Source of the DNA: a virus
DNA: 64,000 nt
IMG/VR virus record: IMGVR_UViG_3300032220_000132
Location: 1 to 64,000 of that record
Strand: one strand, 5' to 3'
Part shown: piece after piece, positions 4,821 through 38,549 of the stretch
How the letters are laid out: every line of letters begins with the position of its first letter
Numbering within the stretch: position 1 is the first letter of the stretch
Notes under the pieces: generated by a model
Seen by the model: only the letters and a program-made list of their open reading frames with translations
What the model was told of the DNA's origin: nothing
Database searches by the model: none
Program-made: the position numbers and the translations under genes

Positions 4821-5071
4821 GACCAAGTCGTGGAATGGGCGCTATTATGCCTACTAAAATGGGTAAACCTAAGCGTAAAGCTCGTAGGGACGATACTGAC
4901 TTTACGGAATATAAAAAAGGCGGGGAAGTTTGGGATAAGCCAAGACCAAAAGGCTTAGGCAAACCAAAAAAACTATCGACTGCTAAAAAAGCCAGTGCAA
5001 AAGCCATGGCAAAAGCTGCTGGTAGACCATATCCTAATCTTGTAGACAATATGAGAGCCGCCAAGAAATGA
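4817..5071 (+). CDS. small strongly basic protein
   Basis: This encodes 84 residues starting MRPSRGMGAIMP, with the ATG overlapping the previous TGA. About a third of residues are Lys or Arg, and YKKGGEV repeats the GG motif of its neighbours without the RADGCA tag. It is likely a DNA-associated virion protein; no family was recognised. Confidence 0.5.
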   Translation: MRPSRGMGAIMPTKMGKPKRKARRDDTDFTEYKKGGEVWDKPRPKGLGKPKKLSTAKKASAKAMAKAAGRPYPNLVDNMRAAKK

Positions 5072-5994
5072 CCACATCTGGAACTACAACCTTCAATCTA
5101 GATCTTAATAACCTTATTGAAGAGGCTTTTGAGCGTTGTGGTACGGAATTGCGTACTGGCTACGATATGCGGACTGCCCGCAGATCATTGAACCTGTTGA
5201 CTGTAGAGTGGGCTAATCGTGGTATTAACTTGTGGACTATTGAGCAGGGGCAAGTTGCAATGGTTACTGGGCAAGGGATTTATCCTATTCCAGTCAATAC
5301 GATTGACCTATTAGATCATGTAGTTCGCCAGAATAACGGTGTTACAAGCAATCAGATTGACATCAACATTACCCGTATTTCGGAGTCTACCTACTCTACG
5401 ATCCCAAATAAGCTAACAACTGGGCGTCCTATTCAGGTCTGGTTTAATCGTCAGTCAGGGCAGTCTAATACGACCGCTGTGACCTTAAACGGCACAATTA
5501 ATGCTACGACCACATCTATTACCGTTAGTGATGCTAGCGCCCTTCCTATCGGTGGCTTTGTCAAGATTGATAACGAAACAATCAGCTACGCTAACGTCAT
5601 TGGTAATGTCCTAACAAACTGCTACCGTGGTCAGAATGGTACTACTGCCGCAAGTCATACGACAGGTGCAGCAATTTCTATACAGAACCTTCCCTCAATT
5701 AATGTATGGCCCACACCCGATGCTGGTGGTGGTCCTTATACCTTTGTGTACTGGAGATTGCGTAGGATTCAAGATGCTGGATCTAATGGCACTGTAGAGC
5801 CTGATATTCCCTTTCGCCTATTACCTTGTATGGTGGCTGGATTGGCTTTCTATATGGCTCAAAAGCTACCAGACGGACAGGCAAGAGTGCAATTTTTAAA
5901 GCAAGAATACGAGGAGCAGTGGCTCCTGGCTTCTACGGAGGACAGAGAGAAAGCCGCTTCTAGGTTCGTTCCTAGGACGACCTTCTATGCCTAA
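5068..5994 (+). CDS. tail accessory / head-completion protein (P22 gp4-like position)
   Basis: This encodes 308 residues. The N-terminal helical part (NLIEEAFERCG, YDMRTARRSLNLLTVEWANRG) and the long insert of beta residues (about 130-215) match head-tail joining proteins of podovirus-like environmental phages. The C-terminal helices (LAFYMAQKLPDG, RVQFLKQEYEEQW) are typical of the same family. It should bind under the portal and help seal the neck. The start overlaps the previous gene by 4 bases. Confidence 0.65.
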   Translation: MTTSGTTTFNLDLNNLIEEAFERCGTELRTGYDMRTARRSLNLLTVEWANRGINLWTIEQGQVAMVTGQGIYPIPVNTIDLLDHVVRQNNGVTSNQIDINITRISESTYSTIPNKLTTGRPIQVWFNRQSGQSNTTAVTLNGTINATTTSITVSDASALPIGGFVKIDNETISYANVIGNVLTNCYRGQNGTTAASHTTGAAISIQNLPSINVWPTPDAGGGPYTFVYWRLRRIQDAGSNGTVEPDIPFRLLPCMVAGLAFYMAQKLPDGQARVQFLKQEYEEQWLLASTEDREKAASRFVPRTTFYA

Positions 5995-10401: not shown

Positions 10402-13400
10402 ATGCCACGCTTATCTAAAATTGGTGCAGCAGCCTTAGCAGCCTTTGGTTGGACAGGGTTGTCTTCTGTTACTGCAAGTTACCTTGTTGTTGCTGGTGGT
10501 GGTAGTGGGGGTGGAGGAAATCTTAGTGGTGGTGGCGGTGGTGGCGCTGGTGGATATTTAACTGGGTCTTTATCTTTAAATCCGTCACTTTCTTATACGG
10601 TAACTGTAGGTGCTGGAGGGACTGGTGGTTCAGGAAATGGAACAAATGGTTCAGATACAAGCGTATCTGGAACAGGAATAACAACTGTTACATCAACTGG
10701 CGGTGGTCGTGGTGCTGGTGCTGGTAGTACAACAGGAGCAAGCGGAGGTTCTGGCGGTGGAGGATCGGCTTCTGGTGCTGCTGCTGGCGGTTCTGGAACT
10801 AGCGGTCAAGGTAACGCTGGTGGTTCTGGAGCTAATTCTGGTGGATCAAATTGGGGTTCTGGCGGTGGAGGTGGTGCTTCTGCTGTTGGTGCTAATGGCT
10901 CAACTGGAGGTGGTAATGGAGGTGCTGGTTCTGCTTCTAGTATTTCAGGTTCTTCTGTAACCTATGCTGGAGGTGGCGGGGGTGCTGGAGATGCTGGTGG
11001 AAGTGGCTCTGGTGGCGCTGGAGGAGGAGGAGCTGGAAGCACAGGAACTCCTACCGCTGGTACTGCTAATTTAGGCGGTGGCGGTGGTGGTGGTAATACT
11101 GGTGCAAATGGCGGTTCAGGAATCGTCATCATCTCCTATGTAGGCGCACAACAATTCGGTGGCGGTGTCGTTACCTCAAGCGGTGGCAACACAATTCACA
11201 CATTCAATACATCTGGCACATTAAGCCCATTGTCCTCGTTGACAGCAAGCTATTTAATCGTAGCTGGCGGTGGTGGCGGTGGTGGTAGACGAGGTGGTGG
11301 TGGCGGTGCAGGTGGATTGCTTAGTGGTTCTAACTTAACGCTTGATACAAACTCGATCTATGCCGTTACTGTAGGTGCTGGCGGTGCTGGCGGTGTTGGA
11401 ACACCATCAACAGTTAATATTGGATCAAGTGGAACAAACTCTGCATTTAGCATGGTTTCAACTTCTGCTGTTGGCGGTGGTGGCGGTGCTGGAGATGGCG
11501 AAGGTGCTGGTCTAGCAGGAGGTTCTGGTGGTGGTGGCTCTAGTGGTGCTGGTGCTGCTGGTACATCAGGACAAGGAAATAATGGAGGAAGTGGGTCAAA
11601 CGATGCGCCTAATTATGGCGGTGGCGGTGGTGGCGGTGCTTCTGCTGTCGGTTCAAACGGAACATCAACTGTTGGTGGTAATGGTGGCGCAGGAACTGCA
11701 TCATCTATTTCTGGCACATCTACTACCTATGCAGGTGGCGGTGGCGGTGGAACTTACCAAGGTGGAACTGCTGGAACAGGTGGTTCTGGTGGAGGTGGTG
11801 GTGGTGGAACAGGTGGTACTGACAATAACGGAACTGCTGGAACTAATGGTTTAGGCGGTGGCGGTGGTGGCGGTTCTATTCAGGCAGATTCATCTAACAG
11901 GGCTGGCGGCAATGGCGGTAGCGGTGTAGTAATCATCTCCTATCCAGGCTCTACTCAACAAATGGCTGGCGGTACAGTTACCGTAGCTGGCGGTAATGTA
12001 ATCCACACATTCACATCAAGCGGATACCTAACCCCAATCGTGTTAGTAAATAACTCATTGCGTTTCCGTTCAAGTGCTTCTGCTTATTTAAATCGTACAT
12101 TTACACAAAGCGGTGATACTCAAAAGTTTACTCAATCTGTTTGGTGTAAGCGTGGAACTTTAGGCGCATTCCAAACAATTGGTTATACATTTTTTACAGG
12201 TACATATAACGGTCAAATGCGTTTTAATTCAAACGATACGCTAGACATTTATGTTTATTACGATGGTTCTTCTTACACTGGTCAATTATCAACCACCCAA
12301 GTATTTCGTGACCCATCTGCTTGGTATCACTTTGTCTTAGCTGTAGATACAACACAAGCTACTGCATCAAACAGAATTAAATTCTATGTTAATGGAGTTC
12401 AAGTAACTGCATTTGGAACAGCAAACTACCCAAATCAAAACCAAGCATTATTGTGGAATGCGTCTGGCAATACTGGCTATTTTATAAATGCACAGCAAGG
12501 AAATCAAAATTTCTTTGATGGCTACTTAGCCGAATTAAATTATATTGACGGTCAAGCCCTAACACCAAACAGCTTCGGTACATCTAACGGACTCGGTGTC
12601 TGGCAACCTATCCGCTACGGTGGTAGCTACGGAACAAACGGCTTCTACTTGCCAATGACTGTAAGTAGTTCAACTGTCTCTGCAAACTATTTAGTAGTGG
12701 CTGGTGGAGGCGGTGGCGGTTCACGGTTTGGTGGTGGTGGTGGTGCTGGTGGATTCTTAACTAGTACAACATCACTTAATTCAGCAACTGCGTATGCCGT
12801 TACTGTTGGTGCAGGTGGAGCTGGTTCTCCAGCAAATAATGGTTCAGCAGGTACAGTATCAGCAGCAACTGCTGGTTCTAATTCAGTATTTAATGCAATC
12901 ACATCTACTGGCGGTGGTGCTGGTGGTGCAGGTGACGATAATAACGCAGCAGGTTCTACTGGCGGTTCTGGTGGTGGTTCAGCTGGTCGTTTTGCTTGTT
13001 CTGGATACGCTGGTACTAGTGGTCAAGGTAATGCAGGTGGTAGCTCAACTGGAACTTTAATTGCTGGATCAGACACATATCGTGGCTCAGGCGGTGGTGG
13101 AGCTGGCGGTGCAGGGTCTATATCAACAAACTCTAGTCCTTTTGGCGGGCAAGGTGGTGTTGGTTTAACCTCGTCTATATCTGGAACTTCAACATACTAT
13201 GCAGGTGGTGGTGGTGGAGCTACTGGAGCTGGTCCTGGTGGAGAAGGTCAACAAAGTCCAGCCACAGGTGGATTAGGTGGTGGCGGCAACGGTGGAAATG
13301 CAACACCAACAGCACCTGCATCTGGCACAGCAAATCTTGGTGGCGGTGGCGGGGGTGGTTACTATTCAGGTCCATCCAATCCAAATAACGGAGCAGGTGG

Positions 13401-15225
13401 CGCTGGTGGCTCAGGTGTTGTTATTGTTTCTTATGCTGGCACACAGAGGTTTGTTGGCGGTAATGTTGGAAATGCTGGTGGAAATACAATCCACACCTTC
13501 ACAACATCTGGCACATTAACACCTATTGGTCTTGACTATTCCCCACAGGGTAACAACTGGACAGCTAATAACATCAGCCTAACTGCTGGCTCTACTTATG
13601 ACAGCATGACCGATGTTCCTACGCTGACAAGTGCTACGGTGGCTAATTATTGCACTTTGAATCCGCTTGACTATGGTTCACGCAGTACATCAACATTTGG
13701 TGGTGGCAACCTTAATGTAAGCAATGCTAATGGCGGTTCAGCAGATAGTATTTATCGTTCAACTTTTGGTGTTTCTAGCGGTAAATGGTATTTTGAAACT
13801 ACATTTACACAAATGTATAACGATGAAGCATGGGTAGGTATTGCAAGAGGTTCAGATTCTTTTACACTTAAAACATCTTCTAATCCTTTTTATGTAGGTA
13901 CTTATACATACAATTCTTATTATGCAAGTGGAGTTAAACTTGCCAGCGGTTCGTCTAGTTCTTATGGAGCTTCATGGACAGCTAATGATGTTATTGGTGT
14001 AGCTTTAGATTTAGATGCTGGAACACTTACATTTTATAAAAATAACTCAAGTCAAGGCACAGCATTTACTGGTCTTACTGGAACTTGGTTTCCTACAGTT
14101 CTAAATGGTGGTGGTAATAGTGCAATCGTAGTTAACTTTGGTCAACGCCCATTCGCCTACACCCCACCAACAGGTTTTGTAAGACTAAACACATTTAACT
14201 TACCTACTCCTACGATTGGTGCTACTGCATCTACAACAGCGAATAAGTATTTTAATGCTGTTCTTTATACTGGAAATGGTGGTACTCAATCGGTAACAGG
14301 TGTTGGATTTCAACCTGATATGGTTTGGAATAAATCAAGAAGTAGTGCATTTGACCATGGAATAAATGATGCTGTAAGAGGTGCTGGTAATACAGTATTG
14401 CCAAACACAACAAACTCTGAACAGGCTTGGCAAATATACTTTACATCTTTTGACTCAGATGGTTTTAGTATGGGAAGTGGCGGTGGGACTTTTAATGCCA
14501 CATCTGGTAGCTATGTAGCTTGGAACTGGAAAGCCAACGGAGCAGGCTCAACCAACACAAACGGTTCTATTAACTCTACAGTAAGTGCTAATACAACTGC
14601 TGGATTTAGTGTTGTTACTTATACAGGTAATGGAGCAAACTCAACAGTAGGACATGGGTTAGGTGTAGCACCAGCCATGTATATTGTTAAAAGACGAAAT
14701 AATGCCGATGCTTGGTTTGTGTATAGCAATCAATTAGCGGCAACTCAATATTTAAGATTAAATTCAAGTAATGCTGCCGCAACATTTAACTTTTGGCAAA
14801 ATACTGCACCAACATCATCTGTGTTTTATATTTCAACCGATGTTAGTGTAAATGCAAGTTCAGACACCTATGTAGCCTACTGCTTTGCACAAGTCGCTGG
14901 ATACTCTGCATTTGGCTCATACACAGGTAATGGTTCTAGTGATGGAACTTTTGTGTTTACTGGGTTTAGACCACGCTATATTTTGATTAAATCTACTGGT
15001 GTTGAAGATTGGGCAATTATTGATTCTTCTAGAAGCTCTTACAACATTCAAGGTGCTGATTTATACGCAGACTTATCTATTGCCGAGGGAACTTCTCAGG
15101 CAATGGACTTTTTAAGTAATGGTGTAAAGATGAGAAACACAGGTGGCTCTTGGAACGCTAATGGAGTAACTTACATATACATGGCATTTGCCGAATCACC
15201 TTTTAAATACGCTAACGCAAGATAG
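10402..15225 (+). CDS. giant glycine-rich adhesin with LamG-like and SPRY domains
   Basis: This encodes 1607 residues and is likely the receptor-binding protein. It has three glycine-rich modules (about residues 25-250, 275-550 and 755-1040), each beginning with SYLVVAGGGGGG-type sequence and ending with a GGNxIHTFxTSG strand. Between modules two and three (about 555-745) is a concanavalin/LamG-like domain (FTQSVWCKRG, WYHFVLAVD, YVNGVQV, DGYLAELNYIDG). After module three comes a SPRY-like domain (about 1110-1260: GKWYFETTF, WVGIARG, VIGVALDLDAGTLTFYKN). The C-terminal part repeats a VVTYTGNG / YVAYCFA pattern of the DUF7483 type. The glycine-rich parts may form polyglycine helices as in known phage adhesins. 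Confidence 0.75.
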   Translation: MPRLSKIGAAALAAFGWTGLSSVTASYLVVAGGGSGGGGNLSGGGGGGAGGYLTGSLSLNPSLSYTVTVGAGGTGGSGNGTNGSDTSVSGTGITTVTSTGGGRGAGAGSTTGASGGSGGGGSASGAAAGGSGTSGQGNAGGSGANSGGSNWGSGGGGGASAVGANGSTGGGNGGAGSASSISGSSVTYAGGGGGAGDAGGSGSGGAGGGGAGSTGTPTAGTANLGGGGGGGNTGANGGSGIVIISYVGAQQFGGGVVTSSGGNTIHTFNTSGTLSPLSSLTASYLIVAGGGGGGGRRGGGGGAGGLLSGSNLTLDTNSIYAVTVGAGGAGGVGTPSTVNIGSSGTNSAFSMVSTSAVGGGGGAGDGEGAGLAGGSGGGGSSGAGAAGTSGQGNNGGSGSNDAPNYGGGGGGGASAVGSNGTSTVGGNGGAGTASSISGTSTTYAGGGGGGTYQGGTAGTGGSGGGGGGGTGGTDNNGTAGTNGLGGGGGGGSIQADSSNRAGGNGGSGVVIISYPGSTQQMAGGTVTVAGGNVIHTFTSSGYLTPIVLVNNSLRFRSSASAYLNRTFTQSGDTQKFTQSVWCKRGTLGAFQTIGYTFFTGTYNGQMRFNSNDTLDIYVYYDGSSYTGQLSTTQVFRDPSAWYHFVLAVDTTQATASNRIKFYVNGVQVTAFGTANYPNQNQALLWNASGNTGYFINAQQGNQNFFDGYLAELNYIDGQALTPNSFGTSNGLGVWQPIRYGGSYGTNGFYLPMTVSSSTVSANYLVVAGGGGGGSRFGGGGGAGGFLTSTTSLNSATAYAVTVGAGGAGSPANNGSAGTVSAATAGSNSVFNAITSTGGGAGGAGDDNNAAGSTGGSGGGSAGRFACSGYAGTSGQGNAGGSSTGTLIAGSDTYRGSGGGGAGGAGSISTNSSPFGGQGGVGLTSSISGTSTYYAGGGGGATGAGPGGEGQQSPATGGLGGGGNGGNATPTAPASGTANLGGGGGGGYYSGPSNPNNGAGGAGGSGVVIVSYAGTQRFVGGNVGNAGGNTIHTFTTSGTLTPIGLDYSPQGNNWTANNISLTAGSTYDSMTDVPTLTSATVANYCTLNPLDYGSRSTSTFGGGNLNVSNANGGSADSIYRSTFGVSSGKWYFETTFTQMYNDEAWVGIARGSDSFTLKTSSNPFYVGTYTYNSYYASGVKLASGSSSSYGASWTANDVIGVALDLDAGTLTFYKNNSSQGTAFTGLTGTWFPTVLNGGGNSAIVVNFGQRPFAYTPPTGFVRLNTFNLPTPTIGATASTTANKYFNAVLYTGNGGTQSVTGVGFQPDMVWNKSRSSAFDHGINDAVRGAGNTVLPNTTNSEQAWQIYFTSFDSDGFSMGSGGGTFNATSGSYVAWNWKANGAGSTNTNGSINSTVSANTTAGFSVVTYTGNGANSTVGHGLGVAPAMYIVKRRNNADAWFVYSNQLAATQYLRLNSSNAAATFNFWQNTAPTSSVFYISTDVSVNASSDTYVAYCFAQVAGYSAFGSYTGNGSSDGTFVFTGFRPRYILIKSTGVEDWAIIDSSRSSYNIQGADLYADLSIAEGTSQAMDFLSNGVKMRNTGGSWNANGVTYIYMAFAESPFKYANAR

Positions 15226-24896: not shown

Positions 24897-27800
24897 ATGG
24901 CGATTAAGCCTGAGAACGTCAACCCGTTTGCAAAATACGTTGAAGAACCAGCTGAAGCGCCTCCCGAAAACCCGTTTGCCAAGTATCTTCAGATATCCCA
25001 ACTAGAAGAAGCAACCAAGAAGTACGAAGAAGAAGTACCTTTTTTACAACGTGTTACTGATCCATTACAAGCTGGAATTGCAAGAATTCCTGGGATACTG
25101 CCAGGATTAGAAGTATCAGCTATTCAGAAACAAATCAACGCCATACGAGAAGGTAAGGGCGGTCCCCGTGATCCTATTACAGGCGAGTCGCTACCTTTTC
25201 AGCCAGAAGAAGCTGATGCAGCAATTAAGATGTTGCAAGCCCAGCAATCAGAGGCACAGAAGAAAGTCATGGCTGCTCAGGCAGAGGCTGGTAAATACCA
25301 AACTAGACCAGCAGTAGCTGCGCTTGGCAATGCAAAAACAGCAAGAGAGGCGTTTGATTTATTCCAAGTAGACCCATTAGGGGTAATGTCTAGCGTATCC
25401 CTAGAAAGTCTCCCACAAATGGGTCCAGCCCTTATCTTGGGTGCGGTTACTAGAAACCCCACGGTAGGTGCTTTAGCAATGGGTAGCACCAGCTTTGCTG
25501 GAGAGTTGTCCTCTGGAATTACTGAGTACTTTCAAGATAAGGGTGTAGATGTTAAAAACCCAGTAGCGGTCAATAAAGCCTTAAATGATCCAGTTTTGTT
25601 TGCAGAGGCATATAACCACGCTCTAACACGGGCATCTATCATTGCTCCATTAGATGCGGCATCTGCTGGTTTAGCCAGCAAAATGCTGGTTCCCAAGCAA
25701 GTTATAAAAAATCAGTTCGCTAAGGAAGCTCTTAATATTGGCGTAGCCCAGCCTGTTGCTCAGATGATTAGTGGTGCTGGCGGTGAGGCATTAGCCCAGT
25801 TAGCCACAGAAGGTGAGATAACCAAGCCTGGTCAAGTATTAATGGAGGCAGCTGGAGAAGGACCATCTAGCGTTCTTGAGACGGCAGCCTTTGGCGGTAA
25901 AGAAGCATATGATCGTTTAAAAGCTAGTCAGCCACCTGCACCACCAGTTCCACCAGCTCCAACTGTAACAGGTGCTCCACCAGCAGTTCCTCCAGCTGCA
26001 CCAACTGATTTAGCTCCAACAGTTGAAGAGGATGACTTAGCTCCATCAGCCATAGTTCCTCCTAGCGTAGTAGCTCCATTGGCTGGTATGGTATCTACAG
26101 AAGGCTTAGACCCAGCAATTGCACAGCAAGTAGAAAGTCTTAAAGCCGAACTCCTAATGATTGAAAATAGGAGAACAGACCCTACTCGCAACGTCAGCGA
26201 AATGGAATTAGAATTTTTGGCACAAAGAGAAGCCGAAGTTGCCAAAGAAATTACTGCCTTATTAACTCCTAAAGCACCAGAAACTTTAGTAACTCCAGTA
26301 ACTCCAGAAGCTCCTGTTACGCCTCCTGTTACACCTCCTGTTGCACAACTAGATTTAATTGGCAGATTGCAAGAGTTTGGCGAGGTTATTGAGTCACGGC
26401 AAGATGCAGAGACTCGTTTCTCTAACGGGGAACAAATATACGCCTTCTCAGAACAAGACGAGCAGCCATTCCTTATTCGCAATATAGATGAAATATCGGC
26501 TTATACGCCAGATAGACTGTTGGCTTTGCCTGCTGCAGTAGCGGAGGAAGTAACTACTGAGCCAGAGGTTGCTACTACAAACCAAGTATTTTCAAATGAT
26601 GGTTTGCAAATTTTTGCTGGTAAAAATAAAGAAGGAACTTTTGTAGCAACAAAAGGTAACCTTGGTGATGGCACTGAAAAGACTTTATTACTTGATAAAG
26701 ACGGAAACACCTTTTGGGGCGATAGAAAAGAAAGTATTAACCCAACAACTGGTGAACGCACAATTGTTGGCGCTGATAAAGATGCAACTCCAGCAACATT
26801 TGCTACAGCAAAAGAAGCTCGTTCTGCTGGTGAAAGAACTTTAGAGGCTGTTCCAGCTGTAGAGGAAACGCCAGCAGAGCCTACCAAAGAAGAGCAGATT
26901 GCTATTAACAAAGCTCGTCAGGAAGAGCAAAGAGCTGCTGCAGAAGCTGAGAAAGCTGAAAAGGAAAAAGCTGAAAAGGAAAAAGCGCCTACTGAGGAAG
27001 AGATAGCCAAACCTACTGGTGGGCCAGCTATTGGAGGACCAGCTGCCCCTACTGGTGGACCAGCTGCGCCTAAAAAGGTAGCTCCAACGGAGGAAGAGAA
27101 GAAAGAAAAAGAAGAGGAAAAGAAAGCTAAAGAGGAAGAGAAGAAGGCTAGAGAAGAAGAGAAGAAAGCCAAAGAAGAAGAGAAGGCTCAAAAAGAAGAG
27201 CAAAAAAAGAAGATAGCTGAATTAAACACAAACCCAATGAAGGTTGCCATGGAAACTGGCAATGCGGATGCGGTTGCAACACTCCTATACGGACATGCTG
27301 TTGATGAAAATTTACATCCAGTTATCTTCCCAGAAGAGATGCTGTTGCGTATTCCAGTCGAAACAACTCTTCTAAGTCAGATAGAAGACCAATTAGTTAA
27401 AAACAAATTCCGCATTACTGACAGAGCAGTTCCAGCAAAAACAGACGATCCGTCCTATGTAGGTCCTGAAAGAATTACTATATCTGCGTTATATAACCCA
27501 GAAAAAGTAAGCATACAGGGTGGTGGTGCTGAATTTTTTAACAACCGTAAAGGACAAATTACTGCTGCTCCATTACCAAAAGATGCCACAGAAAAACAAA
27601 AAGATGCGCTGGTAACTGAATTGTTAGATTTGGCAAACCCCAAAAAATTATTAGACATTCAATCGAATCCAAAAAACACATTTGGCGCATTGATGTTTAA
27701 AGAGGGGTTGGTATCTAAGATAAAGTCACCTGGAGACTATCTCTTTGAGTTAATTAACTTGAATGCAAGAGCTGGCGGACAGTTCAATACTTACATTCCT

Positions 27801-30800
27801 TCTAAAGCAGGAAATCGCCAAGCAATCAAATTAGTCATAGATGATGGCAAAGAACAGTTAGTTAGAAAACTATTAGTAGATTATGTAACGTCTTTACAGA
27901 CCCTACAAGCTGTAATTAACGAGCATTCTAATGTTACCCCTTTATACGATGCATTGGTGGCAAAGTATGTAAAGGATGAGAATGCAGACCGCATACCTGA
28001 CATATATACACCAGAGGGTGTAGATTTAAGAAATAAAATTGAAGATGTTAGGCTGTATCAATACATTCCAAGATTGTTTCTTTTGTTTAGCCTTGATGAA
28101 AACTCTACTGATCAAACAAACCGAATTGTAAAGAAAGACGCAGAGACTCCACCAGAGTTAGGTAACATCATTCGCCGTGGTATGCGTGATCATCGGCAAG
28201 GTCGAGATGTAGATGTACAAGACTTTTTGCAAACATTTAAATTTTTACCAGGCGGTATTGACTTTGGTAATTGGGTTAATCAGTCAGAACGTGCAGCCCA
28301 TCTAAACGCTATTTACGATGCGATGTATGACTTAGCAGATATTGCTGGTATAGCGCCAGAGATGCTAGGCTTGAATGAAAAGTTAAAACTAGCTGTAGGT
28401 GCACAGGGTCGTGGTGGCAAAACTGCGGCTTGGTTCGTTCCTCAATACAACGAAATCAACTTAACAAAAACAAAGGGAGACGGAACACTAGGGCATGAAT
28501 GGCAACACGCATTAGATTGGAATTTAAGAACATCTGCCAACGGAAAAGTCTTAATGGCTGATACGGCACATACTCTACAAAATATGATTACTGTAGAAAG
28601 AGTAGAAAATAATTTACGGTCAATCTTAACCAATACAGCCAATAGTGAAAATAACCGTAATACGCCACCTAAAAAAGCATTTTTTAATGCTATTTCAAAT
28701 AGTCGATATGGTGAAGCAGACATCTATCGTAGCTCTTTTACTGATACACAATTTTACAAAGATGCTTTGGAATTAGACAGAGGTAGAGATAAACCCTATT
28801 GGAGCACTCCAGTAGAATTGTTGTCTAGGTCTTTTGAATCTTTAATATATGATCTATCAAAAGGTGGATCTCCATATCTAGTTGGACCAACAGTAGCCGA
28901 TGGATATGTATCTAAAAAGAATGGTTATCTTGGCACTACTTATCCAGCTGGTAAAGAGCGCCCTGTAATCAATCAAATATATCAACAGATGTTGGATCAA
29001 ATTGATCCTAAGACTTTAGAGATAAAAACATACAAAATAGAAAATCAAATTATTGCGGTTGAAGAGTTAGGTTATGCAGTAGTTGATCAGTATTACCTTG
29101 ATCGTGGTCGACTAGGTGGTTTAAATTGGTTTAAAACAAAAGAAGAAGCAAAAGAAGCTAAAGAACAACGTGACGGCACAGAAGCAATATTAACGCCACG
29201 GCTAATGCAAATTAGCAAGGTTAATCAAAGCATCATTAACATGGCACAACGTATTGATGCCATTATGGATGAGATGGGCTTGTTTAAGTGGCCTGAAATC
29301 AAAAATGGCTCAATGGCTGAATCCATGTTCTACCATATGCGTCAAGGCTGGTGGCCCAAGAACAACCGTGAACTAGCTGAGTATGGCATCAAAGCGTATT
29401 TGCAAGCTCCTGAGCTATTGGGATTTAACCCTGCTAAAAACCAAAGGGAAATAGACAACTACAAAATTGCTGATTTTGAAGGTGATCGAGTTAAGTTAAA
29501 ACAAACTCAAGAAGACTTTGAGGCAGCAGCGGTTCGGTTTATTAGCCAAGTCATTACAGATATGCGATCAGAAGGTTCTGATACCAAAGCTATCTATGAC
29601 CATATTGTTGGCTTATACCAAAATCAACCTACATTAGATGTTAAGTCAGTATTAAGCGTATCCAATAATGCTTACTCTACGCCTTTGCCGATTGCATACC
29701 TTGCTGGCATGTTATCTCGTGTTAAATCGACTACAACAGTATTAGATCCAACTGGCGGTAATGGAATGCTGGTTGTTACGGCTAATCCTAAAAACGTAAC
29801 AACAATAGAGATAGACCCACATCGTGTTAACAATTTAGAGTTAATGCAAATAGGAGATGTGATTGAAGGTGATGCATTAGTAAAAATAAAAGACATACAA
29901 GACCAAAAGGTAGACGTAGTTCTTACAAACCCTCCATTTGGATCACTTCCAACGCCTGTAGATGTTAAGTCTTGGACAGGACAAAATTACAAGATTGGTG
30001 CAATAGATCAACTGATTGCTGCAGAATCATTGCGAACAATGGCAAATGACGGTAGAGCAGTTTTAATACTCGGATCTCATGTCAAGCCAAACACTATTAC
30101 ATCAACAGATAGAGTGTTTTTAAATTGGTTATACGGCAATTACAATGTTGCTGACCACTTTGAAATTGCTGGAAATTTATATCGTAAACAAGGTGCGTCT
30201 TTTCCGTTGCGTGTCTTGGTTATTGCTGGAAGAAATCAAACGGACAATGTTTTCCCAAATGATTTTGTTGTCAATAGAATAAATTCATTTGATGAATTGT
30301 GGAGCAGATATGTTCAAGCCAGTGATCGTAGCGAACAAGTCGTGGTGGGTACCAGAAAATTACGGGGACCTGCTGGCGGTGCAGATAGAACAACCAGAAC
30401 AGTACCAACAGGCGATAATCTCCAAGATGGCGAAACTAGCGGAGGAATGGGGAGGACTGGAGAGGGCGCTGGCATCGGCGAACAATTACCTCCGACAGGA
30501 GGGGTCAACGTACCTCCCAGTGCCAGTGGACGTGGAACAGCTGGTGGAGTTCGTGATACAGAACAACAGCAGGATAGCGGAGAAGATCAACGAGGGAGAC
30601 CCAGAGGTGGCGAACCCAGCACCGCAGAAAGAAGCGATATATCTGGTGAAGAATCAAGCACTGAACTGGGAGGACTTTCTGACCTAGAGCTAGACGATAT
30701 ATTTAATAGCTTAGGCAAAAAACCAAAAACAGGAACAACGACACCAAAAGGAGAGCCTAAAGGTGTTAGAGGTCCAAGAGCTCCTAAAGGAGCAGCTAAA

Positions 30801-33800
30801 ACTAAAACAGTCATTCCTAAAGAGTTAGAAGGTTTAGGACTTGAAAGTTTGCTTGATGAATTAGATGCAGCATTAAATGGTAAAGCTCCAGAGGTAACAA
30901 TTACAGAGCCGACCCCAGAAAACAGCGATGCTCGACTAGACAAGCAATCTCAAGAAGCAATGGATCGTATAGCGCAAAATGCAAAAAATACTAGCGATGA
31001 TCCTAACAGTGGACTGTATTCTAGAAAAGACGACCAAGAGTATGCCAATGTAAAACCAATTATTCAAAAAGTTTGGGAAGCTGTCGGACAAAAAATTACA
31101 GATACCAAACAACGTATTCAACAAGTTTATGATTTATTGGTTAAAAAATTTGGTGATTTAATTAAAGGTCATTTAAGAACCTATGTTAATGAACTAAGAA
31201 ATACAGTACAAAGAAGACCTAAAAATCAAACTCCAGTACAGAGTGAGCCAATTGATACAGAATCAAGAGTTGTTTATTTAGGCAAGTCAAGGTTTTCAAG
31301 CGATGGCATTTACTTACCTCGTGCTCAATCACAGCATGCGTATACGGCTTTAGAAAACCTAGAGGCACAAGTTGGCAATATAGATGAATTTGTTGCCAAA
31401 GAATTAGGATACTCATCTATTGATCAAATGGCAAAGGGACTTGCTGGTTATCAAATCGATGCACTAGGTTTAGCAATTCAAGCTAACAAACTTGGAAAAG
31501 GTTTTATTATTGGAGACGATACTGGCGTAGGTAAAGGCAGAACAGCTGCAGCCATGATTGTCTGGGCAAAGAAGCAAGGCAAAGTTCCAATCTTTGTTAC
31601 CCTGAGTGATTCTTTATACACTGCAATGTATGCCGACTTAATTGCCATTGGTCATGGCGATATTCAAGTGGCAATGACTAATTCTGATTCCAAAATAATT
31701 AAGGACGTTGGAGAAGGCAAAACTGAATTAGTTTTTGAAAACAAAAAAGGTGATAACGACAAGTTAATTAAATACATTACACAAAATAGAAAATTGCCTC
31801 CTGGCAAAGATGTTTTATTTACTGCATATTCTCAGTTAAATGGTGGCGTAGGATCTCCAGCAAGACAATCAGCAATAGCATCTCTAGTTGCAAGTGGAGA
31901 TGCTGTATTAATTATGGATGAAGCCCATAATGCCGCTGGTACGCCAAGCGACAAAGACTCAATGGGTCAAAATGCCTTCTTTATGTCTTTGCTAACGGGT
32001 GAAAACTTATTGGGCAAAGGCGAGGAAGTGCCTGAAAGTTGGAAGCCACCGCCCACTGTTTACTTATCTGCTACGTTTGCAAAACGTCCAGATAACATGC
32101 CTTTGTATATCCATACAAACTTACGTTATGCCGCAGACACTCCAGAAGATTTAACAGCCTTGTTTGGTAAAGGCGTTAAAACAGATGTGTTGCAACAAGT
32201 GTCTTCAGAGATGTTGGTAGAGTCTGGCTCAATGATACGCAGAGAAAGATCGTATGAAGGCGTAACGATGGAATTCGTTATTGATGACAAGAATACCGCA
32301 AGAGATACTAGAGAAGTTGACAAGGTTACAGAAATACTAAGATCTTTGGTTAATGCAGACCGAGCTTTTAAAGAGTGGATAAAAACTGAGGGCGGAAAGG
32401 ACGCAGTAGTTAAGTTAGGTCCTCCAGGCTCGTATATGGGTAAAGTTGGACCAACAGCATTTAATGATACAAAATCTAATCCATTTACCTCTGTAGTGCA
32501 TAACTACATAGGATCGTTGCTGCTTTCAACTAAAACTCAAACTGCTGTAGACATGGTTGTTGACAAACTTAACAACAATGAAAAAGTAGTTGTTGGATTA
32601 CAAAACACCAATGGCAGCGCATTAGAAGATTTTGTTGCACAAAACAACATTAAAAAAGGCGATGACATCCCTGACTTTGGATGGCAAACATTAATTAAAC
32701 GTGCCGTAAAATCCACTACAAAAGTAACTTTAAAATCCGCTAGTGGCAATAAAGACATGGATCAGGTTGTATATGTTCCTTATGAACTAATGCCACCGAA
32801 TATCCGAGCTGGATATGAGAACGTTGAAAATGCTTTAGAAAATTTCCAATCTGATTTACCAGCCGCACCAATTGATTTCATACGCACAGAGTTAGAACAG
32901 AAATATGTATGGACTATTGATGGCAAAACCCACGTTGGAGACACACCGCCTAAAGGGGTAAAAGCAAGACACTTAGTTGTAAAAGAAATTACAGGCAGAA
33001 AGAACGGAATAGATTACTCTGGAGACGTACCAAAGTATGTAACGCTAGATAATCCTAGTCGTACAAGTATGATTTCGTCATATCAAAATGGCGAAGAATC
33101 TAAAAATGGACCAATAGATGTACTGATAATTAACTCCGCAGGCGCAACTGGAATCTCGTTGCATGCCTCAGTAGATGCATTTGACCAGCGTCCACGGCAC
33201 ATGATTGTCTTACAGCCACATGGGGATATTAGCGTCTTCATTCAGTTGTTAGGAAGAATACATAGAACGGGTCAGGTTGAATGGCCTTCATTCACTATGT
33301 TAGCAACTGGAATACCAGCTGAGAGACGAATCTTAGCCATGTTGCGTAAGAAATTGTCTAGCTTGAAGTCCAATACTTCTGGCGGATCTAGCAGTACAAA
33401 GGTTGAAGGCGTAGATTTTATTAATATGTATGGCGATGTAGCAACAGCCGAATACTTGAATGAACATCCAGACATACAAGCCTTTTTAAGTGTGCCTCAG
33501 TATTCAGATCCTGCCGAAGCCGCTGGTTCTGACTTGGCTCACAAAGCGTCAGGCACAGCAGGATTGCTATCTTCGGCAGACCAAAAAGAGTTCTTTGACT
33601 CTATTGAAGCCAGTTATATAGCGGAAATAGATTTAAGGAATGCTACAGGAACTAATGCATTAGAAAGAAGGGTATTGCCATTAGAAGCTGAAATTATCAA
33701 AGAAAACTTAATCGAAGAGGGTTTAGATAGTTCCAATCCATTCTTAACTGATGTAGTAATGGCACAGTTTAACGTGGATATTATTGGCTCAATACCTACT

Positions 33801-36800
33801 GTACAAAACATAAAAGATGACATCAGTTTTGCATTAAACGGCAAGACAGCGCAGGACGTTGTTAATGAAATAGAGACAGATTTAAACAGCGTCTATATTG
33901 AAGTAAGAAATCAAATTGTTCTTAAACAGCAAGCGCTTGATGAAGCTATAAAAAATCCAACAGCTACTGAAAAAGATATAGCAGAGTTAAATAAGCAAAA
34001 AATAGCGTTAGACAATCAATTTGCCACATTAAATGAACGTAAAGATAAAACGCTACAGGCACTAAGCAACACCTTTGCAATTGGAACTGGCTTTGAATCT
34101 TTTATAGTTAACAGTGTTCCATCCGCTGCTGTAGTTATAGGAATAAAGGTAGATAAAGCACGGATAGGTAAATCCAAAACTGGTAATCCTTATTCACCAT
34201 CAAACTTCCAAGTTATTATCAAACGAAATATTCCTGAAGGTAGGATATCTCCAACCTTGGCAACATTGGAAGGTACATCAATTGAGCGATCTAGTCCTTG
34301 GACAAACCCTCCTCTAGAAGATTGGTTTGCCTTAAAGTCGGTTACTGGTGGAAGAACAACTAGATATATAGCCTTAGGAAACATACTAAAAGCTGCTCAA
34401 TTGTTTGGTCCTAGTGGCGGTGAAATTGCTAAATTTACTTTGCAAAATAGCAAAGAAGCAATATCTGGCGTAGTCATGCCATCTAAGTATGTGCCAGTGG
34501 CAATTAGCGAACAAGCGGTTCGGTTAAGAAACCCAGAAGCAGCAGTTCAATATTTGCTGGCTATGTGGGACAGCATAGTACAGAAAAAATATAACGATAC
34601 TCAAATTGAATCATATAAAGAATTAAGTGATACCTTAAAACCTTTAATGATTCCTAATTTGCCAAACCCTTTTGATGGAGAAAAGACTAGTACAAATGCT
34701 GTTATATTGCGTGGCTCAGCACAAACATGGCAGTTGCGGATTGATCCGTATCGACCAAATAACTTTAAAGTAATTATTGCAGGAGATGTTCCAAAGAAAT
34801 TAATAACTGCACCAATACTTAAAACGTTAATTCCAGGTGGCCTTGCCAAAAAAGGTAACAAAGCATATGAGATGTCTGGCGGTGATTCATTAACAGATCC
34901 ACAAAAAATAATATTGTTAGTCAAGTTCTTACATAAAAATTACCCAGCGACAGTAGAAGCAGATAGCGCTAAGTTTGCTCGTGAAGTAATGAAAGTGGAG
35001 TTTGACTATAGTGAAAGTAAGAAAGGTTTAGCATCACGGGGTCCTGCAGAGGGCGGTCAAACGGTTGAAGCTGTTCAAGCACAGATTGTTCCTATAAAAG
35101 GAATTACAGTTAACGTTCTTCAATCAGTTGATGAATTGCCAGACAATACTGCGCCAGCTGACGTAGAAGGTATGTGGCTTTCGGGCAGAACTGTTTACTT
35201 AATTGCAGATAACCTACCAAATGCAAAAAGAGTACAGGAAGTATTAGCGCATGAGGCTGTTGGTCACGCTCTTTTAGAAGAGATGTTGGGACCAAAGCTG
35301 ATGGCAGAATTGGTTAGAAATGTCCAAAACTTAGAAAAGACTTCTAGCCTTGTTAAGGAAATAGCCGCCAAAGTAGATCGTACACAGCCTGGCTTATCGC
35401 CAGAGCGAAGAGCCAAAGAAATCGTAGCAAACATGGCAGAGCGTGGCATGTACAAAATAGGTCTAGTACAGCGTGTTATTCAAGCCATTCGCAATTGGTT
35501 GAGAAGCCAAGGGTATACGATTAGCTTCTCTGATAGGGATATTGTTGAACTATTAAACTTTGCCGAAAACTACTTTGATCGTAAAGAAGCAGTCCGCTTT
35601 CCATCTTTACAACCTGCACCAGCAAAGACTCAAGCAGAGATCAATAGAGAGCGTCAACAACAAAAGCGGGAAAAGGCTGCTGGGTACTTCAGTAGAGAAG
35701 GCGAAGGCAAGAACACTGAAGACTTTGACAAGCAATTTGCTGAAGATGGCTTTAACAACACTCCAATTAGGTCTTCATCTACAGTAAAGGACACTTTACT
35801 TGGCGGTGCAAAACAGGCAAAGCAGGCTTACGACAACACTATAGATGCTCCAGCCATGGCATATAAAGCCATGAGTGGCAAGCTCTTGCGTGGCATTACC
35901 TATGTCCGTAATAAGAACATCTGGTATGGTGCTGGTTTGGAATTGGCTGAGAAAATCAACCAAAAGGCAGCTGGTTTATCTGGCAAGCTGCGTGATGGTC
36001 AAGGTAGAGCCATGGCTTCTATTGCCATTACCAATGCCTTACACGCTGGCAATATTGCCGTAGATGTTATTAGACAGGGCTCATTGGCGTTTAATAGAGA
36101 TAGCCAGATGTTCCAAGCAATTAAACGACCATTCTCTATGGCTAACGTAATCATTGAAAAATCAAAGTTGATAGCTAGAGTTGGTGAACAACGTGCCCAC
36201 GACATGATTCAAATGTACTTTGAAGCCAAGCGCTCCAAGAGCATTAATGACGAATTCCAGAAAATAGAAGAGGAAATTGCTCGTTTAGATAAAGAGCGCC
36301 TTTCACCAGGACTAGACAACGATCAGCTCAATCAAATTCTTAATGACCTTTTAAATGCCAAGCAGGACTTGAAGCAGATTGGTATTGCGAAAAAGAAGGT
36401 TCGCATGACCGAAAAGCAGATAGATTTTTACAGAAAACTAGATGAAAAGCATCCAGAACTAGGCAAGATGATGGAGAACTGGACCAAAGTCAATCAAAAC
36501 ATGATTGACATGATGTTGTTTAGCAAAATCATCAGCAGTAAACGTGCAGAACGGCTTAAGAGCATTGAGGATTATGTTCCTTGGTATCGTATCCAAGATG
36601 ATATGGAAGACGTTCACGATACAAGCACCATGGGTAGTGTGCGTAGCAATACTAATATTGCCAAAGAAAAGAAATTCAAGGATACCGAAGTAAATAAGGA
36701 TATTGATGACATTGTGGATAACATGCTCCACAACGTTATGACTATTACCCGTAACTCTATGCGTAACTACGCTGCCAACCGTGTAGTTGATTCTTTTGCA

Positions 36801-38549
36801 ACCCGTGTTAAAGGAAAAATAGCAGTCTTTCCAAAAGAAGGACCCACAACAAATGGCGCAGTTCGATTAAACATCTTACGCAATGGTCGCAGAATCATCG
36901 TTGAAATCAAGGATCCATTGATTGCCGAGTCCGTAACAGGTATGGAAGATGTTGCTATTCCTGGCATGGATGTCCTCGGTATGGCTGCAAACGGATTACG
37001 CAGAGGTATTACGTTATGGCCTGCGTTCCAAATAAGACAGCTATTTATGGATGCCCCAACAGCTGCTCTGGTTTCTGGAGTAAAGAACCCAACTAAGCTC
37101 TGGGGAGAAGTATTTGGTGGTTTTATAAAGTCAGTAAAAAAGGATGATCCTATAGTTGAGCTCTTACGGTCCTATGGAATAGGTGGATATCAGTCCTATA
37201 CCAGAACTGCAGAAATGGAACTGAAACAAAGGATTGGCTTAATTGAAAAGAACAAGTTTGATTGGTTGATGAGTAAATTAGATCAAATTGGAGATGCCTC
37301 AGATATGGCGCAGCGTGTGGCTATATACAATCGTGTTTTGGCTGAGACTAAATCTGACGAATTTCCTAATGGCGATCAGATGCAAGCCCTTATATCTGCC
37401 AACAACATTATTGACTTCAAAAAACGTGGCTCAGGTCGTTTAGCCCAGTTCCTAACCAGAACTGTATCCTTTATGAACGCCTATGCCCAGCAGATTGACG
37501 TGCTGGCATTGACAATCGCTGGTTCTGGGTACACTGGCAAGAGCAAATCAGACGCCTATGTGCAGTTAGCCAAGACAGCAGTGCTGTTCTCTTTCTACGT
37601 CATGCTCTATTCATGGGCAGTTGGTGGAGAAGATGACTACGAAGAACTAGATGATCAGACAAAACTGCGTAATCTTTATATTCCAAAGGCGCTGACCAAA
37701 CAAATTGGCATGGACAACGGTTTATTAATTCCAATGCACACATCGGCTAGTTTCTTCTTTAAGTCAATTCCAGAGCTAACCTATAACACAGTAATGAAAG
37801 AGGGAACAGAAAATGAAATTGATGGCGCTCGTCTTCGTAAAGCCCTTGCCGAAGCTGCTATAGACTCATTATTAGGTCCTAACCCAGTGCCAACTGGTAT
37901 CAAACCAGGTTTTGAGATTTTGCTCAATAGAAACTTCTTTACTGGTGGCACAGTAACTCCTAAAGGTATGGAAGACCTAGATGCTGTTGAGCAATACACC
38001 GCATCAACCTCTGAGCTTGGCAAGATTCTTAGCGCTATAACTAACATCCCATTCACCGATAAGCGTATTCTTAACCCAATTGAGGCAGATCACCTAGTTC
38101 GTGGTTTATTTGGAACTACTGGTGCAGCTGTCCAGTGGGGTAGCAATATATTCTCTGGTGATCGCCCAACCGCTACAGCTAGACAGAATCCGCTGTATGG
38201 CTCGTTTATTGCCCCTGATGTAGCCCGTGGTAATGAGGAACTGTTCTATGACTTTAAGAGTAAGGTTGATAACAAGTACGAAACCTATATGAAGCTCTTA
38301 GAGCGTGATAAGGCAGATGAGGCTGATAGGTACTACAACAAGCATGCTGACCTGATCTCAGCCCGTGACTATGTGACTGGCATGGAAGTAGCCTTGCGTG
38401 ACTTAAACCGCCAGATTCGTAACACTGGTGAGGTAAAGGACAAGAGTTTCACGCCTGATCAACGTAGACAGGAGATCACTGATCTACAGCGCTCTAAGCA
38501 GGAGCTGCTAGAAGGGATTATCCAGATGCGCTTGGACTCTGGACTGTAA
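24897..38549 (+). CDS. giant DarB-like polyvalent ejection protein (4550 residues)
   Basis: One uninterrupted 13.65-kb frame covers about a fifth of the window. Visible modules in order: tandem NPFAKY at 9-14 and 25-30; Pro- and Lys/Glu-rich linkers to about 790; a zincin motif HEWQH at 1200-1204; an N6-type methyltransferase with DPTGGNG at 1617-1623 and NPPFG at 1678-1682; a low-complexity linker (about 1800-1960) that overlaps another ORF; a strawberry-notch-type helicase with GDDTGVGKGRT at 2206-2216, DEAH at 2341-2344 and GRIHRTGQ at 2786-2793; a second metal-site motif HEAVGH at 3452-3457; and a long helical tail with a hydrophobic stretch near 4220. The methyltransferase-helicase pair is that of phage P1 DarB, an ejected anti-restriction protein. 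The tail resembles LPD38-type polyvalent regions. An ejected multi-tool protein is the best reading. Confidence 0.8.
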   Translation: MAIKPENVNPFAKYVEEPAEAPPENPFAKYLQISQLEEATKKYEEEVPFLQRVTDPLQAGIARIPGILPGLEVSAIQKQINAIREGKGGPRDPITGESLPFQPEEADAAIKMLQAQQSEAQKKVMAAQAEAGKYQTRPAVAALGNAKTAREAFDLFQVDPLGVMSSVSLESLPQMGPALILGAVTRNPTVGALAMGSTSFAGELSSGITEYFQDKGVDVKNPVAVNKALNDPVLFAEAYNHALTRASIIAPLDAASAGLASKMLVPKQVIKNQFAKEALNIGVAQPVAQMISGAGGEALAQLATEGEITKPGQVLMEAAGEGPSSVLETAAFGGKEAYDRLKASQPPAPPVPPAPTVTGAPPAVPPAAPTDLAPTVEEDDLAPSAIVPPSVVAPLAGMVSTEGLDPAIAQQVESLKAELLMIENRRTDPTRNVSEMELEFLAQREAEVAKEITALLTPKAPETLVTPVTPEAPVTPPVTPPVAQLDLIGRLQEFGEVIESRQDAETRFSNGEQIYAFSEQDEQPFLIRNIDEISAYTPDRLLALPAAVAEEVTTEPEVATTNQVFSNDGLQIFAGKNKEGTFVATKGNLGDGTEKTLLLDKDGNTFWGDRKESINPTTGERTIVGADKDATPATFATAKEARSAGERTLEAVPAVEETPAEPTKEEQIAINKARQEEQRAAAEAEKAEKEKAEKEKAPTEEEIAKPTGGPAIGGPAAPTGGPAAPKKVAPTEEEKKEKEEEKKAKEEEKKAREEEKKAKEEEKAQKEEQKKKIAELNTNPMKVAMETGNADAVATLLYGHAVDENLHPVIFPEEMLLRIPVETTLLSQIEDQLVKNKFRITDRAVPAKTDDPSYVGPERITISALYNPEKVSIQGGGAEFFNNRKGQITAAPLPKDATEKQKDALVTELLDLANPKKLLDIQSNPKNTFGALMFKEGLVSKIKSPGDYLFELINLNARAGGQFNTYIPSKAGNRQAIKLVIDDGKEQLVRKLLVDYVTSLQTLQAVINEHSNVTPLYDALVAKYVKDENADRIPDIYTPEGVDLRNKIEDVRLYQYIPRLFLLFSLDENSTDQTNRIVKKDAETPPELGNIIRRGMRDHRQGRDVDVQDFLQTFKFLPGGIDFGNWVNQSERAAHLNAIYDAMYDLADIAGIAPEMLGLNEKLKLAVGAQGRGGKTAAWFVPQYNEINLTKTKGDGTLGHEWQHALDWNLRTSANGKVLMADTAHTLQNMITVERVENNLRSILTNTANSENNRNTPPKKAFFNAISNSRYGEADIYRSSFTDTQFYKDALELDRGRDKPYWSTPVELLSRSFESLIYDLSKGGSPYLVGPTVADGYVSKKNGYLGTTYPAGKERPVINQIYQQMLDQIDPKTLEIKTYKIENQIIAVEELGYAVVDQYYLDRGRLGGLNWFKTKEEAKEAKEQRDGTEAILTPRLMQISKVNQSIINMAQRIDAIMDEMGLFKWPEIKNGSMAESMFYHMRQGWWPKNNRELAEYGIKAYLQAPELLGFNPAKNQREIDNYKIADFEGDRVKLKQTQEDFEAAAVRFISQVITDMRSEGSDTKAIYDHIVGLYQNQPTLDVKSVLSVSNNAYSTPLPIAYLAGMLSRVKSTTTVLDPTGGNGMLVVTANPKNVTTIEIDPHRVNNLELMQIGDVIEGDALVKIKDIQDQKVDVVLTNPPFGSLPTPVDVKSWTGQNYKIGAIDQLIAAESLRTMANDGRAVLILGSHVKPNTITSTDRVFLNWLYGNYNVADHFEIAGNLYRKQGASFPLRVLVIAGRNQTDNVFPNDFVVNRINSFDELWSRYVQASDRSEQVVVGTRKLRGPAGGADRTTRTVPTGDNLQDGETSGGMGRTGEGAGIGEQLPPTGGVNVPPSASGRGTAGGVRDTEQQQDSGEDQRGRPRGGEPSTAERSDISGEESSTELGGLSDLELDDIFNSLGKKPKTGTTTPKGEPKGVRGPRAPKGAAKTKTVIPKELEGLGLESLLDELDAALNGKAPEVTITEPTPENSDARLDKQSQEAMDRIAQNAKNTSDDPNSGLYSRKDDQEYANVKPIIQKVWEAVGQKITDTKQRIQQVYDLLVKKFGDLIKGHLRTYVNELRNTVQRRPKNQTPVQSEPIDTESRVVYLGKSRFSSDGIYLPRAQSQHAYTALENLEAQVGNIDEFVAKELGYSSIDQMAKGLAGYQIDALGLAIQANKLGKGFIIGDDTGVGKGRTAAAMIVWAKKQGKVPIFVTLSDSLYTAMYADLIAIGHGDIQVAMTNSDSKIIKDVGEGKTELVFENKKGDNDKLIKYITQNRKLPPGKDVLFTAYSQLNGGVGSPARQSAIASLVASGDAVLIMDEAHNAAGTPSDKDSMGQNAFFMSLLTGENLLGKGEEVPESWKPPPTVYLSATFAKRPDNMPLYIHTNLRYAADTPEDLTALFGKGVKTDVLQQVSSEMLVESGSMIRRERSYEGVTMEFVIDDKNTARDTREVDKVTEILRSLVNADRAFKEWIKTEGGKDAVVKLGPPGSYMGKVGPTAFNDTKSNPFTSVVHNYIGSLLLSTKTQTAVDMVVDKLNNNEKVVVGLQNTNGSALEDFVAQNNIKKGDDIPDFGWQTLIKRAVKSTTKVTLKSASGNKDMDQVVYVPYELMPPNIRAGYENVENALENFQSDLPAAPIDFIRTELEQKYVWTIDGKTHVGDTPPKGVKARHLVVKEITGRKNGIDYSGDVPKYVTLDNPSRTSMISSYQNGEESKNGPIDVLIINSAGATGISLHASVDAFDQRPRHMIVLQPHGDISVFIQLLGRIHRTGQVEWPSFTMLATGIPAERRILAMLRKKLSSLKSNTSGGSSSTKVEGVDFINMYGDVATAEYLNEHPDIQAFLSVPQYSDPAEAAGSDLAHKASGTAGLLSSADQKEFFDSIEASYIAEIDLRNATGTNALERRVLPLEAEIIKENLIEEGLDSSNPFLTDVVMAQFNVDIIGSIPTVQNIKDDISFALNGKTAQDVVNEIETDLNSVYIEVRNQIVLKQQALDEAIKNPTATEKDIAELNKQKIALDNQFATLNERKDKTLQALSNTFAIGTGFESFIVNSVPSAAVVIGIKVDKARIGKSKTGNPYSPSNFQVIIKRNIPEGRISPTLATLEGTSIERSSPWTNPPLEDWFALKSVTGGRTTRYIALGNILKAAQLFGPSGGEIAKFTLQNSKEAISGVVMPSKYVPVAISEQAVRLRNPEAAVQYLLAMWDSIVQKKYNDTQIESYKELSDTLKPLMIPNLPNPFDGEKTSTNAVILRGSAQTWQLRIDPYRPNNFKVIIAGDVPKKLITAPILKTLIPGGLAKKGNKAYEMSGGDSLTDPQKIILLVKFLHKNYPATVEADSAKFAREVMKVEFDYSESKKGLASRGPAEGGQTVEAVQAQIVPIKGITVNVLQSVDELPDNTAPADVEGMWLSGRTVYLIADNLPNAKRVQEVLAHEAVGHALLEEMLGPKLMAELVRNVQNLEKTSSLVKEIAAKVDRTQPGLSPERRAKEIVANMAERGMYKIGLVQRVIQAIRNWLRSQGYTISFSDRDIVELLNFAENYFDRKEAVRFPSLQPAPAKTQAEINRERQQQKREKAAGYFSREGEGKNTEDFDKQFAEDGFNNTPIRSSSTVKDTLLGGAKQAKQAYDNTIDAPAMAYKAMSGKLLRGITYVRNKNIWYGAGLELAEKINQKAAGLSGKLRDGQGRAMASIAITNALHAGNIAVDVIRQGSLAFNRDSQMFQAIKRPFSMANVIIEKSKLIARVGEQRAHDMIQMYFEAKRSKSINDEFQKIEEEIARLDKERLSPGLDNDQLNQILNDLLNAKQDLKQIGIAKKKVRMTEKQIDFYRKLDEKHPELGKMMENWTKVNQNMIDMMLFSKIISSKRAERLKSIEDYVPWYRIQDDMEDVHDTSTMGSVRSNTNIAKEKKFKDTEVNKDIDDIVDNMLHNVMTITRNSMRNYAANRVVDSFATRVKGKIAVFPKEGPTTNGAVRLNILRNGRRIIVEIKDPLIAESVTGMEDVAIPGMDVLGMAANGLRRGITLWPAFQIRQLFMDAPTAALVSGVKNPTKLWGEVFGGFIKSVKKDDPIVELLRSYGIGGYQSYTRTAEMELKQRIGLIEKNKFDWLMSKLDQIGDASDMAQRVAIYNRVLAETKSDEFPNGDQMQALISANNIIDFKKRGSGRLAQFLTRTVSFMNAYAQQIDVLALTIAGSGYTGKSKSDAYVQLAKTAVLFSFYVMLYSWAVGGEDDYEELDDQTKLRNLYIPKALTKQIGMDNGLLIPMHTSASFFFKSIPELTYNTVMKEGTENEIDGARLRKALAEAAIDSLLGPNPVPTGIKPGFEILLNRNFFTGGTVTPKGMEDLDAVEQYTASTSELGKILSAITNIPFTDKRILNPIEADHLVRGLFGTTGAAVQWGSNIFSGDRPTATARQNPLYGSFIAPDVARGNEELFYDFKSKVDNKYETYMKLLERDKADEADRYYNKHADLISARDYVTGMEVALRDLNRQIRNTGEVKDKSFTPDQRRQEITDLQRSKQELLEGIIQMRLDSGL
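30310..30687 (+). CDS. candidate overprinted gene inside the giant protein's linker
   Basis: In the +1 frame relative to the giant gene there is a 125-codon ORF starting MFKPVIVANKSWWVPENYGD and ending NWEDFLT. GGAG at 30301-30304 lies 5 bases before this ATG; in-frame starts also exist at 30289 (TTG) and 30292. The product looks like a folded helical protein (aromatic, aliphatic and charged residues mixed), whereas the host frame here reads as Gly/Arg/Thr/Ser-rich disorder. By hand count about 86 of 125 codons end in G or C, unlike neighbouring genes. No known family was recognised. It could be a functional nested gene or a relic of an older reading frame. Confidence 0.55.
   Translation: MFKPVIVANKSWWVPENYGDLLAVQIEQPEQYQQAIISKMAKLAEEWGGLERALASANNYLRQEGSTYLPVPVDVEQLVEFVIQNNSRIAEKINEGDPEVANPAPQKEAIYLVKNQALNWEDFLT

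Follow-up and report, generated by a model that had tools for sequence, protein, structure and literature searches.

DarB-type DNA methylase–helicase dyads of polyvalent proteins have been described, and P1 DarB is packaged in the virion and protective against restriction (PMC5512222). That paper never uses the word "overlapping". Phage methylases are already known to harbour out-of-frame genes, as in ShiLan, an out-of-frame HNH endonuclease gene in actinophage methylases that behaves as a patchy homing insertion (PMC11855218). The ShiLan element starts with GTG, lacks a detectable RBS and has an HNH fold. The gene we propose here differs in being nearly universal in its host family, in having an ATG with a Shine–Dalgarno sequence, in lacking HNH, in its unknown fold and in having a free-standing homolog. 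Its family is itself undescribed, as judged from a literature search limited to open access; no description of the gene was found there.

The window (the whole stretch analysed, 64,000 nucleotides) lies in a 64-kb virus record. Its giant host gene resembles the DarB-type dyad (PMC5512222) in carrying an adenine-type methyltransferase and then an SF2 helicase in one giant phage protein with LPD domains, and it has the domain make-up expected of a DarB-like gene, namely an NPPF methyltransferase of adenine type followed by AAA_34 and Helicase_C_4, with LPD1 and LPD38. The host frame remains open throughout the ORF that concerns us. The relevant features are as follows.

24897–38549, + strand: host gene, a 4550-aa polyvalent protein with LPD1, an adenine-type methyltransferase with NPPF, a Strawberry-notch-type SF2 helicase and LPD38
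29520–30300, + strand: the host gene's methyltransferase module (phrog_3820 match), located immediately upstream of the ORF
30301–30304, + strand: Shine–Dalgarno GGAG, 5 nt ahead of the ORF's ATG
30310–30687, + strand: proposed overlapping gene of 125 codons and a TAG stop, read +1 relative to host ORF 24897–38549
30351–30683, + strand: host-frame linker, predicted disordered (pLDDT 22–27, without secondary structure); coincides with the ORF
31491–32279, + strand: AAA_34, the N-terminal NTPase core of the host protein's helicase
32979–33464, + strand: Helicase_C_4, the C-terminal domain of the host protein's Strawberry-notch helicase

Elsewhere in the window, positions 10402–15225 encode a 1607-aa protein that matches virion/tail-fibre PHROGs, and the DNA there has many short GGT/GGC-type repeats.

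The initial annotation had pointed to a 125-codon +1-frame ORF with GGAG 5 bases before its ATG, which is present at 30310–30687, and had called its composition protein-like and the host linker low-complexity. Both descriptions are borne out. The predicted product (125 aa) is acidic (net charge −8) and mostly helical, with zero Cys, zero His, a W-x-P motif near its N-terminus and 12 aromatic residues; the linker read from the same bases contains 1 aromatic residue, 80% disorder-promoting residues and 21% Gly. The count of about 69% G/C-ending codons was likewise correct (GC3 of 0.69), but its use as an argument for coding fails: the phage's other genes have a GC3 of 0.34, and their codon usage correlates negatively with that of the ORF (r = −0.43, where the 5th percentile of real gene stretches is +0.07). 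Third positions of the ORF are first positions of the host frame, which Gly, Arg, Asp, Glu and Ala codons make G- and C-rich, so the high GC3 is not coding evidence. The length of the ORF is only mildly unusual, being matched by 3% of synonymous-codon shuffles of the linker, and in many Gly-rich, G+C-rich relatives, where the fraction of shuffles reaching ORF length rises to as much as ~0.8, length carries no significance by itself. An attempt to date the two frames by codon usage gave a better-fitting frame that varies from genome to genome. Length and codon usage would not suffice, and the proof of a gene is comparison with relatives.

A search with four ORF orthologs yielded 22 viral loci. 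All 22 keep the ATG, the GGAG (as GGAGC or GGAGT) and the +1 frame, and none is interrupted by a stop, one being cut by its contig end. The ORF is 35–92% identical among these loci and the host linker varies, while the host methyltransferase module is 91–96% identical among close relatives. Differences by codon position within the overlap follow the ORF frame (0.184, 0.125 and 0.287), and host third positions differ at 12.5% inside the ORF as compared to 45–50% outside. Suppressed synonymous change in the host frame and conservation of the ORF with its start signals had been proposed as checks, and +1-frame stops in close relatives as part of the refutation. Both comparative tests strongly support a second protein made from the linker, although translation itself was not observed. 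The other possibility raised, that the linker is merely a relic of an older gene, finds no support, the ORF being intact and under selection.

That selection was estimated in nine clades by comparing sequences pair by pair, each site being classed as synonymous or nonsynonymous for either frame; upstream and downstream flanks, handled identically, served as controls. The intervals come from bootstrapping codons and are uncorrected for the shared ancestry of pairs. The dN/dS of the ORF is 0.56 (0.42–0.71) in the window clade and 0.57, 0.48, 0.73, 0.83 (0.68–1.00), 0.82 (0.70–0.97), 0.43, 0.50 and 0.24 in the eight others. Values thus range from 0.24 to 0.83, with the upper 95% bound below 1 in eight of the nine clades and at 1.00 in one. 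Flanking controls gave 0.84–1.09. The exceptions are two pairs that differ at few sites, L135/142 (0.71 and 0.72) and L092/94 (0.91 and 0.47), where wide intervals leave the contrast between ORF and control weak. Host-frame dN/dS is 0.92–2.07 in the overlap and 0.03–0.42 outside it. Selection in the overlap thus sees mainly the ORF rather than the host protein; by these substitution estimates, the host frame within the overlap is essentially unconstrained. The locus satisfies three sequence-level criteria for a nested gene: the ORF lies wholly within another open coding frame that is itself conserved as protein, it has its own start signal in a conserved ATG with a Shine–Dalgarno sequence, and in nine clades selection acts on the nested frame beyond the host frame.

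The same nested gene is conserved in more than a hundred phage and plasmid sequences. A methyltransferase profile built from 12 sequences was used to fetch 80 viral loci. In the inspected loci whose contig covers the linker, a +1 ORF of 88–160 aa begins at, or close to, the corresponding position of the host gene; L081 and L133, whose contigs end too early, and L131 and L134, which were not looked at individually, were left out. Nearly every phage or cyanobacterial-plasmid homolog that covers the linker has the ORF at this spot, always in the +1 frame. Bacteroides phage BS-TP4 (L055) is the only isolated phage in which the gene was detected, and Picosynechococcus PCC 7117 (L057) carries the plasmid form. 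A second, Bacteroidota-centred profile found 57 fused loci in which the helicase could be located; of these, 53 have a +1 ORF of at least 75 aa, and further cases occur among its loci without a located helicase. A few short ORFs (L277, L278, L280) may be another type. L278 and L280, together with L132 and L140, have shorter +1 ORFs (88–107 aa) without the N-terminal W-x-P part and are possibly N-terminally truncated or a separate type. Members of the family are recognised by W-x-P close to the N-terminus, a stretch of L-A-V, helices and, at the C-terminus, a motif of the L-x-x-[IFW]-L type.

Start sites are also preserved. The mean anti-Shine–Dalgarno energy is −6.1 kcal/mol as compared to −1.7 kcal/mol for 3931 control +1 ATGs, with the caveat that loci are not independent. 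Every close relative retains the Shine–Dalgarno sequence, and most distant relatives have one that differs in sequence; it is weak in some Bacteroidota-type loci.

Among cyanobacteria, a profile of five ORFs searched against 386 genomes gave six matches. The five loci read on the + strand (L177, L180, L182, L183, L184) are all nested in the +1 frame of the same host gene; the sixth, L181, was not re-read on its other strand. Some matched genomes had supplied the profile, but L183 and L184 had not. In 7.3 Gb of plasmids, a tblastn search with the Leptolyngbya ORF found, besides itself, only two sequences (22–24% identity), both lying under annotated helicase genes. The plasmid host genes start just before the methyltransferase and end after the helicase (about 2060–2580 aa), and the cyanobacterial-plasmid host gene is annotated only as a helicase. 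Several methyltransferase–helicase lineages with a short linker or split genes are without the small gene, so the pair can work without it and it is not universally required. A six-frame HMM search of P1 DarB and PEp14 gp27 found no convincing family match. L146 and L148 (Oscillatoria sp. CS-180 and Hydrococcus rivularis) appear to be decayed methyltransferase–helicase copies with the small ORF or its remnants. In some split loci (L255, about 5051–5731; L153, 6789–7478), a cytosine-type-methyltransferase-like gene lies between methyltransferase and helicase, the small gene's place elsewhere.

Profile comparison by HHalign joins the main groups, namely A7 (the window type), A6 (a large phage group), A8 (a third group) and A9 (cyanobacterial). 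Five of the six pairs score 70–95%, and scores among the four groups lie above all 100 column shuffles; the A7–A9 pair, at 4.3%, is not confident though still above shuffles. AlphaFold2 run on the ORF with 56 sequences gave a pLDDT of 93.7 and a pTM of 0.86. The host frame of the same bases, modelled with 15 sequences in a piece of overall low quality (pLDDT 49.5), has a pLDDT of 22–27 over residues 278–388. The ORF product is thus predicted to be confidently folded and the host-frame reading disordered. No member group has a convincing match in Pfam, PHROGs, NCBIfam, PADLOC or PDB sequences, and at E ≤ 0.001 a Foldseek search with the ORF model returned neither a PDB nor a viral match. The window ORF and the flavobacterial ORFs described below have no match in annotated phages or plasmids. 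Weak Pfam, NCBIfam and PADLOC hits (DUF7897, Cas11a and others) were far below curated cut-offs or confined to few members and so were not used. No biochemical activity of the ORF product can be inferred from known families or folds.

The family profile also matched an ORF of Aquimarina agarilytica between separate methyltransferase and helicase genes. This free-standing homolog occurs at 12 flavobacterial loci, in marine flavobacteria, as the middle gene of a three-gene operon. L155 and its relatives resemble the nested gene in protein homology, position and similar length (140–141 aa), but are not nested, overlapping both neighbours by only 1–8 nt. The flavobacterial profile has modest direct matches to A5 and A6 (36–79%) and no direct match to A7 or A9. 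Six overlapped phage ORFs (L205, L208, L214, L221, L246, L247) form a bridge: they match the flavobacterial family at 97.7% (E 1.6e-12, HHalign) and A6 at 95.9%, and A6 matches A7 at 95.3%, the last step of a chain from flavobacteria through the bridge and A6 to the window type. As far as profile homology can establish it, the free-standing homolog, linked through these intermediates, decisively supports a real gene.

A tree of 114 methyltransferase rows, obtained by a quick search and weak at many forks, was given an assumed root among gamma-proteobacterial plasmids without the ORF; it nests the flavobacterial operons inside the overlapped group. With that root and a long branch, the tree favours a fission that would have exposed a once-nested gene over a fusion across a free gene. 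The long flavobacterial branch and the assumed root leave the order of origin of the two frames unsettled. In the same tree the overlapped L214, L246 and L247 fall among split loci without the ORF, which suggests recombination or regain of the small gene.

We are highly confident that the ORF is a real, overprinted and separately initiated protein-coding gene, one that annotation has missed. Its translation is inferred, without ribosome profiling or mass spectrometry, as is any role with a partner; the ORF, its start site, selection, foldability, free-standing homology and co-occurrence are computed. In the proposed mechanism, ribosomes would start internally on the giant gene's mRNA at the ORF's own GGAG and ATG and yield a separate acidic, mostly helical protein of ~14 kDa. 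Other ribosomes, one frame back, would translate these bases into a disordered spacer leading from methyltransferase to helicase. The constant place between these two in phages, cyanobacterial plasmids and the flavobacterial operon makes work with the pair the most likely role, and the same position in plasmid host genes suggests a role with the pair rather than with the virion. From this context we lean somewhat towards a product that acts with the methyltransferase–helicase anti-restriction pair as binding partner, assembly factor or regulator.

A real gene whose product acts freely in counter-defence, such as an acidic DNA mimic inhibiting a host restriction enzyme, is the alternative that survives best, and we regard it as unlikely but open. 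The proteins are strongly acidic (mean net charge −9.4 to −11.5, median pI 4.45) and are encoded within an anti-restriction gene. That acidity, however, may stem in part from Gly codons of the host frame, no fold match supports mimicry, and the strict placement, held even in plasmids and the three-gene operon, better fits a partner of the pair. Programmed frameshifting alone, with the ORF as a C-terminal extension of a truncated methyltransferase, is very improbable. The +1 frame is open for 25–75 codons upstream of the ATG in some relatives, but an in-frame stop lies only 9 codons before the ATG in the window, no codon intervenes in ten relatives, the ATG and its Shine–Dalgarno sequence stay at the same spot, and in flavobacteria the homolog stands as a separate gene that has an ATG of its own. 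A selfish out-of-frame insertion carrying a homing endonuclease finds its precedent in ShiLan, where an out-of-frame gene likewise sits in a phage DNA methylase gene whose host frame stays open (PMC11855218). We consider it still less credible here. The ShiLan element is marked by HNH with zinc fingers and by patchiness among close relatives; the ORF matches neither a family nor a fold of endonucleases, its window version is free of His and Cys, and CxxC occurs in none of 85 members. It is present in nearly all relatives, including every close one, and it co-diverges with the methyltransferase (Mantel r 0.66, p 0.001). A chance ORF without product, left open by Gly/Arg/Thr/Ser-rich codons, would accord with the shuffles of G+C-rich relatives and the atypical codon usage in the window, but is practically ruled out by ORF-frame constraint in nine clades that is much weaker or absent in the flanking controls of well-populated ones (unless a DNA-level constraint mimics codon structure), the conserved start, the confident predicted fold and the free-standing homolog.

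If the product does serve the pair, the methyltransferase–helicase systems of phages and plasmids would have a third component, overlooked because the linker between the other two covers its gene in a different frame. That linker would be a disordered by-product of translation across an intact gene, and fission in flavobacteria would have re-exposed the gene; this fuller account is evenly balanced in our judgement. Phages, cyanobacterial plasmids and cyanobacterial genomes share one nested gene at one recurrent place, and flavobacteria have its natural un-overlapped counterpart; with both forms available, this system makes it possible to test how overprinting arose and what it costs. The finding adds an unnamed protein family, confidently folded by prediction, to a widespread anti-restriction system, and indicates that what passes for a long "linker" in a giant phage protein can be a second gene that annotation missed.
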